Below are positions 17,747 to 24,002 of a stretch of DNA of 35,524 nt, in pieces (positions within the stretch are counted from its first letter, which is position 1; each line of letters starts with the position of its first letter). The notes below the pieces were generated by a model. That model made no database searches. It was not told where the DNA came from and saw only the letters and a list, made by a program, of their open reading frames with translations. Both the position numbers and the translations under genes were made by a program. Where the stretch lies: assembly GCF_947302755.1 (NCBI RefSeq), contig NZ_CAMYWM010000009.1:1-35524 (forward strand), read 5' to 3'. This DNA comes from an uncultured Anaerovibrio sp. (GTDB taxonomy: Bacteria > Bacillota > Negativicutes > Selenomonadales > Selenomonadaceae).

Positions 17747-18154
17747 TTAAAACATTCCCTTTAGCATAAACCTGTTCCTTGATTCATCAAATTCCAGCAG
17801 AAAGCTTACCTGGGCCTTGGTGTCCCGACCCTCTGCCACCGCCCAGATAATCACCAGATTGGCCTCTTCCCCCACAAAGACCTGACAGTGTCCGCTATCC
17901 GTCTCCCCACTGTAGCCTGTAGAGGTCATGGGGCGATGCTCCTCCAGCACCCTCTGCAAAAGGCCCGGCTCACGGCTTAACCGCTTATATTCCGCCAAAG
18001 CAGCCTGCTCCGCCATAAGAGCCAGCCTCCTGTGCAGCATATCCCTATCCACCAGCTGATGCTCCAGCCTGTTTAATCCCCCCAGGGACATCGTCAGAAG
18101 AGCCGCCGAAAACACCAAAAGCACCGCCACAACGGATATACTGCCCCTGTCCAT
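17747..18154 (-). CDS. PilX-like minor pilin/assembly protein
   Basis: A small protein (about 135 residues) beginning MDRGSISVVAVLLVFSAAL: a short charged leader, RGS and a hydrophobic helix (about 5-28), as in PilX N-terminal domains. A soluble part follows (QVFVGEEANLVIIWAVAEG). No prepilin peptidase site of G-F/S...E type is clear. The open frame reaches 18175 with a TTG and 18172 with an ATG, but these lie inside a degenerate copy of the 21-bp repeat. ATG 18154 has AGGA 8 nt upstream and gives a family-like N-terminus. It follows the minor pilin gene after about 50 bp of repeat sequence. Confidence 0.6.
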   Translation of the reverse strand: MDRGSISVVAVLLVFSAALLTMSLGGLNRLEHQLVDRDMLHRRLALMAEQAALAEYKRLSREPGLLQRVLEEHRPMTSTGYSGETDSGHCQVFVGEEANLVIIWAVAEGRDTKAQVSFLLEFDESRNRFMLKGMF

Positions 18155-18164
18155 TTCCTCAATC

Positions 18165-18274
18165 CTGCTCATCAATAATCATTCCTGCTCATCAATAATG
18201 ATCCCCTATTCATCAATAATGATCCCCTGCTCATCAACAATACTTCCCTGCCCATCAATAGTCCTTTCCTGCTC
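18165..18274. repeat. 21-bp tandem repeats at the end of a minor-pilin gene
   Basis: Five units starting at 18165, 18185, 18206, 18227 and 18248 (first unit 20 bp, others 21 bp) of the type CTGCTCATCAATAATGATCCC, plus a partial sixth. On the minus strand they encode the heptad GIIIDEQ-like tail of the minor pilin. A C-to-T change turns one CAG into the TAG stop at 18206-18208, and the remaining two units are noncoding. The 20-bp unit shifts the frame relative to the others. The repeats also supply the sequence upstream of the next gene's start. Confidence 0.85.
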
Positions 18275-18784
18275 CTTTACCAGCATATAGTAGCTGTACA
18301 GCCCGGTTTCCAGGGTGGATGCCTGACCCGTAGCCCTATTTTCCAATGTCATACGCATTACCACCTTATGGGGCAGCACCTGCTCAAAGGTAATATCACG
18401 GATATTAACGTATTTTTGCCGGTCATTATTGGAAATAGGCTGGCCGTTGACCAAAAATACGCCCTGATTATCCGGGGACTGATAGTAGGTTAATGTGGTT
18501 TGCTGCCCTCCTGTCACATTTTCCCCCTGTACAATCAGCTGATGATGGCCCACCACCCGCATCCCGGTGGCGTATCTTACCCGTTGGTGAACCAGATTGG
18601 TAATCACCCGGATTTCCTCCAAATGAACCCACTGGCTGGTGGTTTTAATATAATTCCGCCCCAGCGCGCCATAGGCCGCTACCAGAGCGGTCAACAGGCA
18701 CAAGCATATGGGCATACATATTAATATCTCCGCCAGGGTAAAGCCCCGGTCATCTGCACCAGCAAATAAATTATTGCCTGTCAT
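18206..18784 (-). CDS. Minor prepilin with GFTLAE site (PilW/ComGF-like)
   Basis: The prepilin of about 192 residues has a leader MTGNNLFAGADDRG cleaved before FTLAEILICMPIC: Phe at +1 and Glu at +5, the classical peptidase and assembly signals. The hydrophobic helix covers about 15-38 of the precursor. A pilin-like globular part follows (for example VRYATGMRVVGHHQLIVQG, LTYYQSPDNQGVFLVNGQPI), reminiscent of PilW. The C-terminus is made from 21-bp tandem repeats (TIDGQGSIVDEQGIIIDE). The start at 18784 is chosen for its GGGGAGAGGGG ribosome binding site; an in-frame ATG at 18802 lies upstream of that site. It overlaps the preceding minor-pilin gene by about 14 bp. Confidence 0.8.
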   Translation of the reverse strand: MTGNNLFAGADDRGFTLAEILICMPICLCLLTALVAAYGALGRNYIKTTSQWVHLEEIRVITNLVHQRVRYATGMRVVGHHQLIVQGENVTGGQQTTLTYYQSPDNQGVFLVNGQPISNNDRQKYVNIRDITFEQVLPHKVVMRMTLENRATGQASTLETGLYSYYMLVKEQERTIDGQGSIVDEQGIIIDE

Positions 18785-19103
18785 GGCCCCTCTCCCCATC
18801 ATCAGCCACCTCCTGCCATACCGGCTGGGACAATATGCGCCGCTCCAGGGCGCAGGCGTCGGCGTACACCAGAAAGCTGTATTTCAGCATCCCCAGCAGG
18901 GATACCAACAGCAGGAACAGCAATAGTACATCCATAAGGACAAAGCCCCCCTCCTGCCCGCCAGTCTTCCCTCTCTTGTCACCACGCCTATGCTCCGGCA
19001 TGGCTCCAGCCAATATTTTCTCGGTACAAGTCTCTTTATAAGTCTCTTTACAGGTCTCGTTATAAGTCCTTTTTAAATCCTTTTCCTCATTTAATTTACT
19101 CAA
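18771..19103 (-). CDS. Small prepilin-like protein with tetrapeptide repeats and GFVLMD site
   Basis: 110 residues. The hydrophobic segment GGFVLMDVLLLFLLLVSLLG (about 53-72) resembles a class III prepilin signal, with Phe at +1 but Asp instead of Glu at +5. This is near the position where ComGE/PilV-like minor pilins sit. Before it is an unusually long, polar leader (about 53 residues) with a tetrapeptide repeat xET(C/Y) encoded by 12-bp tandem repeats (19028-19075). The start is a TTG at 19103, 2 bp after the upstream gene's stop, with GGTGGGG about 10 nt before. An ATG at 19001 would give a shorter leader. The long leader makes processing by the peptidase uncertain. Its exact role is unknown. 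Confidence 0.55.
   Translation of the reverse strand: MSKLNEEKDLKRTYNETCKETYKETCTEKILAGAMPEHRRGDKRGKTGGQEGGFVLMDVLLLFLLLVSLLGMLKYSFLVYADACALERRILSQPVWQEVADDGERGHDRQ
19028..19075. repeat. 12-bp tandem repeats in a minor-pilin gene
   Basis: Four consecutive units of AAGTCTCTTTAT type (19028-19039, 19040-19051, 19052-19063, 19064-19075), the first two differing at a single base, the others at two to four positions. On the minus strand they read (Y/C)(N/K)ET. They keep the reading frame if a unit is gained or lost. Confidence 0.8.
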
Positions 19104-22721: not shown

Positions 22722-24002
22722 CTATTCACTGCAAACCCGCAGAACCTCCTCCAGCTCCACCAGCCCCGCCTTGGCCTTGTCCACTCCATCCAGCCACATT
22801 GCCTTCATCCCCGTCTGCATGATTTCCTCCTCCAGCTCCTGCAGGCTGGCCTCACGGGTGATACACTGCTGCAGCCGGCTGTCCATAACCAATATTTCCT
22901 GAATTGCCACCCGGCCCTTTACCCCACGGCCATTACACCTGTCACAGCCCCGCCGGTGATATAGCCACATGCCCGGCTCATAGGCCTCCCCCAGGGTCCT
23001 GGCCAGGTCGCTGTCCGGCAATATGTCATAGGCCTGACAGCAATGGGGACACAAGCGGGGCAGCAGCCGCTGGGCCACAATCCCCCTTAGGGCAATGGCC
23101 AGCATAAAGGGCTTAATCCCCATTTCCCTGAGGCGGAAAATCGCCTTGGCAGCACTGGAGGTATGAACCGAGCCAAAGACCAGATGGCCTGTCAGTCCGC
23201 TCTTAATCAATATTTTGGCCACCTCCTCACTGCGCACTTCCCCAATGGCCAAAATATCGTAATCCTGCCGCAGCACTGCCCGCAGAGCCTCCTCAAAATC
23301 CAGCTTCAGCCTGGTATTCACCTGTATCTGATTTATCCCCTCCAGCTGATATTCCACCGGATCCTCAATGGTCACAATATTCTTTTGGCTGTCATTCAGA
23401 TAATGCAGGGCTCCATATAAGGTAGTGGTTTTACCGGAATTCACCGGCCCCACCATAAGTACTGCCCCGCTGGCTTCCCGGCACAGGCCAATAAACCTTT
23501 CCCGATTTTCCGGCGAAAAATCAAGGCTGTCCATGTCCATAAAGCCTGCGGACCTGTTCAGCAGCCGCATCACCACCTTTTCCCCCTTTATCAGGGGTAC
23601 GATGGATACCCGTACATCAATGGTCTGCTGGCCAAATTCATATGAAAAGCGTCCATCCTGGGGCAGCCGGTTCTCCGCAATATTCAGCTGACACATTATC
23701 TTGATGCGGGAAATAACATTGCTGTACAGCTCCATGGAAATTTCATCATAAATTTCCTCCAAACGGCCATCTATGCGATAGCGAAGCCGCCCCAGTTTGT
23801 GCCCGGGCTCCACATGGATATCACTGGCGTTGTTCTCCAGGGCTTCCTGCAGCAGGCCATTGACCAGCTCCACCACCGGCGAGCGGTCATTCACCATCTT
23901 TACCGGGGGCGATATAGGGTCAGAATAGGTGGTGATACTGCGCCGGGCAATTTCAAACAGTTCCCCTAAGGTCTTATTTTTCTTATTATTTTTATTATCC
24001 AT
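22722..24002 (-). CDS. pilB: Type IV pilus assembly ATPase PilB (GspE family)
   Basis: This ATPase powers pilus extension. 426 residues, shorter than the typical 560, because the N1 domain is missing: the protein begins close to the N2 region (VVELVNGLLQEALENNASDIHVEP). Walker A is GPVNSGKTT (185-193), followed by TIEDPVEYQ, IAIGEVR-type Walker B (LAIGEVRSEE, 251-260) and SVHTSSA. The usual aspartate of GEIRD is a serine (Ser258). A zinc-type tetracysteine motif is present: C318/C321 or C322 and C353-x2-C356. It is the first gene of the pilus operon, with a good promoter upstream. Confidence 0.88.
   Translation of the reverse strand: MDNKNNKKNKTLGELFEIARRSITTYSDPISPPVKMVNDRSPVVELVNGLLQEALENNASDIHVEPGHKLGRLRYRIDGRLEEIYDEISMELYSNVISRIKIMCQLNIAENRLPQDGRFSYEFGQQTIDVRVSIVPLIKGEKVVMRLLNRSAGFMDMDSLDFSPENRERFIGLCREASGAVLMVGPVNSGKTTTLYGALHYLNDSQKNIVTIEDPVEYQLEGINQIQVNTRLKLDFEEALRAVLRQDYDILAIGEVRSEEVAKILIKSGLTGHLVFGSVHTSSAAKAIFRLREMGIKPFMLAIALRGIVAQRLLPRLCPHCCQAYDILPDSDLARTLGEAYEPGMWLYHRRGCDRCNGRGVKGRVAIQEILVMDSRLQQCITREASLQELEEEIMQTGMKAMWLDGVDKAKAGLVELEEVLRVCSE

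Follow-up and report, generated by a model that had tools for sequence, protein, structure and literature searches.

A lineage-specific tandem repeat across the stop codon of a minor pilin gene and the start of the next gene in an Anaerovibrio type IV pilus operon

Results

The pilus operon and its minor pilin genes

In this study, we analyzed a stretch of 35,524 nucleotides from the genome of an uncultured Anaerovibrio sp. (NCBI RefSeq assembly GCF_947302755.1, contig NZ_CAMYWM010000009.1; hereafter the window), which we take to be a rumen-type bacterium. The window carries a type IV pilus operon in which a PilT family ATPase, a PilC/GspF protein, a GspG-like major pilin and a PilO-like protein were recognized by profile. 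Gene order and sequence features served to name the prepilin peptidase, the ATPase at 22722-24002 and the genes in positions H, V, W, X and M, none of which had a profile match above the cut-off.

The gene in the PilW/GspJ position (pilW, 18206-18802, minus strand) encodes a protein of 198 aa. Residues 19-25 read RGFTLAE, a prepilin-type N-terminus of the GFxxxE kind, and the neighboring genes encode PilC, PilT and PilO; pilW was therefore classified as a minor pilin gene, with a weak match to the N_methyl profile that stays below the cut-off (15.8 of 21.2 bits). The AlphaFold model of PilW is poor throughout (mean pLDDT 48.6), and the low confidence of the C-terminal tail in that model is therefore uninformative. 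The following gene, minor-pilin-like and in the PilX/GspK position (pilX, 17747-18172, minus strand), encodes 141 aa when read from the ATG at 18172, which is probably its start; this start is predicted, and position 18154 (MDRG) is the alternative. Pfam and NCBIfam searches with the PilX-position protein gave no match, and orthologues at 48-50% identity were found in five congeners.

A second and weaker tandem repeat of the operon, 12 bp x 4, lies at 19028-19076 (minus strand) in the long leader of the gene in the PilV position. Counted from the TTG common to the orthologues, this leader takes about 52 codons before GFVxMD here, vs 5 in A. lipolyticus and about 18 in Anaerovibrio sp. JC8.

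Anatomy of the array

The pilW-pilX junction is occupied by a tandem array of 104 bp (18271-18168, minus strand) that comprises four 21-bp units and one 20-bp unit and is directly followed by the partial copy CAGGATTGAGG. Unit 1 (18251-18271, minus strand; CAGGAAAGGACTATTGATGGG) encodes QERTIDG in the PilW C-terminus, unit 2 (18230-18250, minus strand; CAGGGAAGTATTGTTGATGAG) encodes QGSIVDE, and unit 3 (18209-18229, minus strand; CAGGGGATCATTATTGATGAA) encodes QGIIIDE, the final sense codons of pilW, so that these three units make up the last 21 codons of the gene. Unit 4 (18188-18208, minus strand; TAGGGGATCATTATTGATGAG) begins with the pilW stop codon TAG (18208-18206) and also contains an SD-like sequence with an ATG at 18192, from which a 6-codon ORF, MSRNDY, runs to a TGATG on the pilX ATG. 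Unit 5 (18168-18187, minus strand; CAGGAATGATTATTGATGAG) has lost one base relative to the 21-bp units and includes both a backup TGA in the pilW frame and the pilX ATG at 18172, 5' of which the SD-like GAGCAGGAA straddles the border of units 4 and 5.

A preliminary description of this locus had proposed five heptad-coding 21-bp units across the stop codon and the gene junction. The array across the junction was recovered, but only units 1-3 encode heptads. The description was right that a base change inside a unit creates the stop (CAG to TAG by C to T in unit 4), that one unit has 20 bp (unit 5) and that the start region of the next gene is itself built from the repeat, with ATG 18172 inside unit 5; its statement that the last units are noncoding is too simple for unit 5, which carries that ATG and an SD-like sequence.

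The TRF score of the array was 124, whereas none of 100 first-order Markov windows of equal length scored above 76, which places this in-frame tandem array far above chance. Similarly, five of the six matches in the window to the unit consensus with up to 3 mismatches fall in the array, where 0.04 would be expected by chance. Units 3 and 4 are identical at 19/21 positions and the remaining pairs among units 1-4 at only 14-16/21, so the array has not been homogenized lately. Between units 1 and 2 there are 0 synonymous and 5 nonsynonymous codon differences, and since the differences between units lack a third-position bias, the heptad sequence is under no visible amino-acid constraint.

The repeat unit as a probable copy of a start signal

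Every unit contains an SD-like AGG core shortly 5' of an ATG, and the columns that are invariant across the five units include the AGG core and TTGATG. Because of this structure, our preferred reading is a translation-start region that has been copied in tandem. Between the invariant columns of the SD core and the ATG lies a variable spacer (p 0.017 in a post hoc test, chosen after viewing the columns), a pattern that hints weakly at constrained start signals. The A. lipolyticus pilX start has the sequence GATGACTCAGGATAGGGG and resembles GATGAGCAGG and GATGAATAGGGG of the units. The simplest reading of these sequences is that the pilX start region would have been the seed of the tandem copies; with protein identities of only about 50% to even the closest congeners, the seed is not provable.

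Comparison with Anaerovibrio congeners

The closest named relatives of the pilin belong to Anaerovibrio (JC8, A. lipolyticus and RM50). Both flanks of the locus are collinear with these congeners. The distance from the conserved KE motif of PilW to the DRG motif of pilX is 28-41 nt in the five congeners compared (JC8, three A. lipolyticus and RM50) vs 120 nt here, and at the DNA level 15 congeners yielded nothing array-like, only short matches at chance level (best E 0.003 over 33 bases). The array is thus lineage-specific. The exact unit pattern was also absent from the viral contigs searched. A first scan of genome contigs returned no relative; an alignment-based contig scan returned five Anaerovibrio loci, all from other species, and the genome collections searched contained no second strain of this species. 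The copy number given here is that of one genome, and the other species compared are without the array.

In the five congeners, pilW and pilX overlap. Three congeners were scored by script and two by direct reading: counted from the end of the PilW stop, the pilX start candidates lie at -11 or more in L055, at -14 to -26 in L052 and at -4 (or +2) in L056, and the overlap in L053 and L054 is read from the ATGACTCAGGATAG / ATGACGCAGGATAG sequence. In the genome studied here, the pilW stop and the pilX start are separated by +33 nt, a distance that is wider than at any other operon junction computed and falls outside the range of translationally coupled pairs (stop to start about -8 to +10 nt).

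Consequences of unit gain or loss

We enumerated the outcomes of cleanly gaining or losing one or two units. As 21 = 3 x 7, such events alter the PilW tail by 7-aa steps or alter the spacing to pilX. Gains and losses among units 1-3 move the tail and leave the spacing at +33, and duplication of unit 4 or 5 sets the spacing to +54 or +53, respectively; joint loss of units 4 and 5 deletes the start sequence searched for, and the spacings given are those of the other outcomes. Altogether, PilW ranged from 184 to 205 aa and the spacing from +6 to +54 nt, in agreement with the proposal that slippage can change both. Slippage had further been suggested to remove the stop. Loss of the TAG unit can indeed do so, but the effect is small: PilW gains two residues and stops at +6, for unit 5 supplies a backup TGA (CAG GAA TGA), which makes the loss almost harmless. 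Phase variation by on/off switching is not expected, because with a 21-bp unit every enumerated gain or loss keeps the pilW frame to a stop in or just past the array, and pilW was switched off in no outcome.

Repeat load of the genome

Arrays with period 9-60 and score of at least 100 numbered 24 in a 1.16-Mb sample of this genome vs 5 in 1.2 Mb of three congeners (binomial p 0.0003), the samples being unequal in contig size and possibly different in gene content. As one of 24 such arrays in 1.16 Mb, the pilW-pilX array needs no special function. In a search of its own genome for dispersed copies, the only significant match was the array itself. Loss of mismatch repair was considered as the cause of the many repeats and rejected: the genome encodes a MutS domain, and slippage by 21 bp should depend little on mismatch repair.

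Some other arrays of the genome touch gene edges, for example a 39-bp repeat (2.8 copies, palindromic core) across another same-strand gene junction (L069:12366-12474). Elsewhere in the samples, we observed a 15-bp unit x 31 within a 1472-aa open frame (L121:6911-7379, same genome), an open frame that spans 5361 aa or more, contains several repeat arrays with units of 60 to 246 bp and might encode a giant repetitive surface protein (L126:3913-19998), a 335-bp tandem duplication that seems to cover the 3' portion of a gene, its stop codon and sequence past it (L111:2517-3290), and, in Anaerovibrio sp. JC8, a CRISPR-like array of some 16 copies with a 36-37 bp repeat every ~66 bp (L090:13549-14640).

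Discussion

Origin and possible function of the array

Our analyses favor a lineage-specific minisatellite that arose by tandem copying of the pilX start region at an ancestral gene overlap and is probably close to neutral, a reading to which we assign a probability of roughly 0.7. Originally, pilW and pilX would have overlapped, and the translation-start region of pilX would have been copied in tandem at their junction, the extra copies being read in frame as a heptad tail of PilW. The CAG to TAG change inside unit 4 would then have ended pilW, and pilX would start from the final copy, which has an SD-like sequence and an ATG of its own. The array would persist because the PilW C-terminus and the pilX leader tolerate changes of length. 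This neutral expansion is favored because arrays of this kind are abundant in the genome and no amino-acid constraint is visible in the heptads; we infer both the neutrality and an origin by slipped-strand pairing or unequal crossover.

Several other explanations deserve attention. The array might work as a translational rheostat, in which ribosomes start at the ATGs of the upstream units in a second frame, the short ORFs feed pilX, and the number of units sets the PilX:PilW ratio. The four upstream ATGs do share one frame, and their ORFs of 27, 20, 13 and 6 codons all stop at the TGATG with a one-base overlap with the pilX ATG, an arrangement that is due to the 20-bp unit; for anti-SD pairing, the predicted energies are -5.7 to -10.0 kcal/mol at the upstream ATGs and -5.9 at the pilX ATG. 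The gap of +33 nt is beyond the ~20 nt where tested native pairs lose most termination-reinitiation (PMC10666635), though synthetic pairs can differ, some of those cited in PMC12548453 being still coupled at +25 nt. There is also precedent for short ORFs that bring ribosomes to a coupled gene, including MIRU repeats (PMC12548453). However, with an SD-like sequence of its own, pilX does not depend on ribosomes being brought to it, the repeated SD-ATG already follows from copying, and RNA folding across the array is unremarkable (z -0.88). In addition, units 1-3 sit within translated pilW, and initiation within translated genes is usually suppressed. We consequently regard a rheostat as unlikely, and its extended form, in which the duplicated initiation region is a tunable ribosome-feeding device whose short ORFs replace the ancestral overlap and in which two pilus-tip proteins are made in a ratio set by the number of units, as distinctly improbable.

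The junction could also be a contingency locus, where frequent slippage would vary the PilW tail, and hence the pilus tip, under selection for diversity. The tail can vary by heptads without loss of frame, and some slippage is plausible given the near-identity of units 3 and 4, but the greater divergence of the other pairs argues against recent homogenization, no copy-number variant was seen, unit changes have no on/off effect, and congeners have a short tail; frequent, selected slippage therefore appears rather improbable, and the variable pilus tips of the preliminary description are unsupported. Finally, a collapsed or chimeric assembly, with a different true copy number, might be suspected in a draft of 214 contigs, tandem repeats being described as a source of assembly errors (PMC6868369). 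Such an artefact is very improbable, because common short reads are longer than the 104-bp array, each unit can be told apart from the others and the flanks are collinear with those of congeners. The array is a real, lineage-specific minisatellite that spans the stop codon of a pilin gene and the start of the next gene.

Relation to known systems

A literature search returned no direct precedent for a repeat across a pilin stop codon. Like bacterial minisatellites and VNTRs, the array consists of degenerate tandem units with a length that is a multiple of 3, is lineage-specific and lies at a protein terminus; unlike them, it crosses a stop codon into the next start, and its unit is a copy of a start signal. 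MIRU are described as mobile repeats that insert at start codons, with coupling at -4 nt (PMC12548453). The array shares with them the position at an operon gene junction, with a short ORF ending over the downstream start, but it occupies a single locus, is built of a 21-bp unit, overlaps by -1 (TGATG) and lacks dispersed copies. The pilW-pilX junction of the congeners overlaps as is typical of translationally coupled pairs (PMC10666635, PMC6728339), whereas the PilW stop here lies 33 nt from the pilX start.

Compared with its congeners, this genome presents a case in which an overlapping and probably coupled pair of genes has become a spaced one through a tandem repeat whose unit is the start signal itself. 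It is possible that the array tunes pilX translation, with a putative regulatory role through coupling; if the number of units altered the ratio of two pilus-tip proteins, slippage would offer a simple way of tuning the stoichiometry of a complex without an on/off switch. The evidence favors an ordinary minisatellite with an unusual unit, namely a copied start signal.
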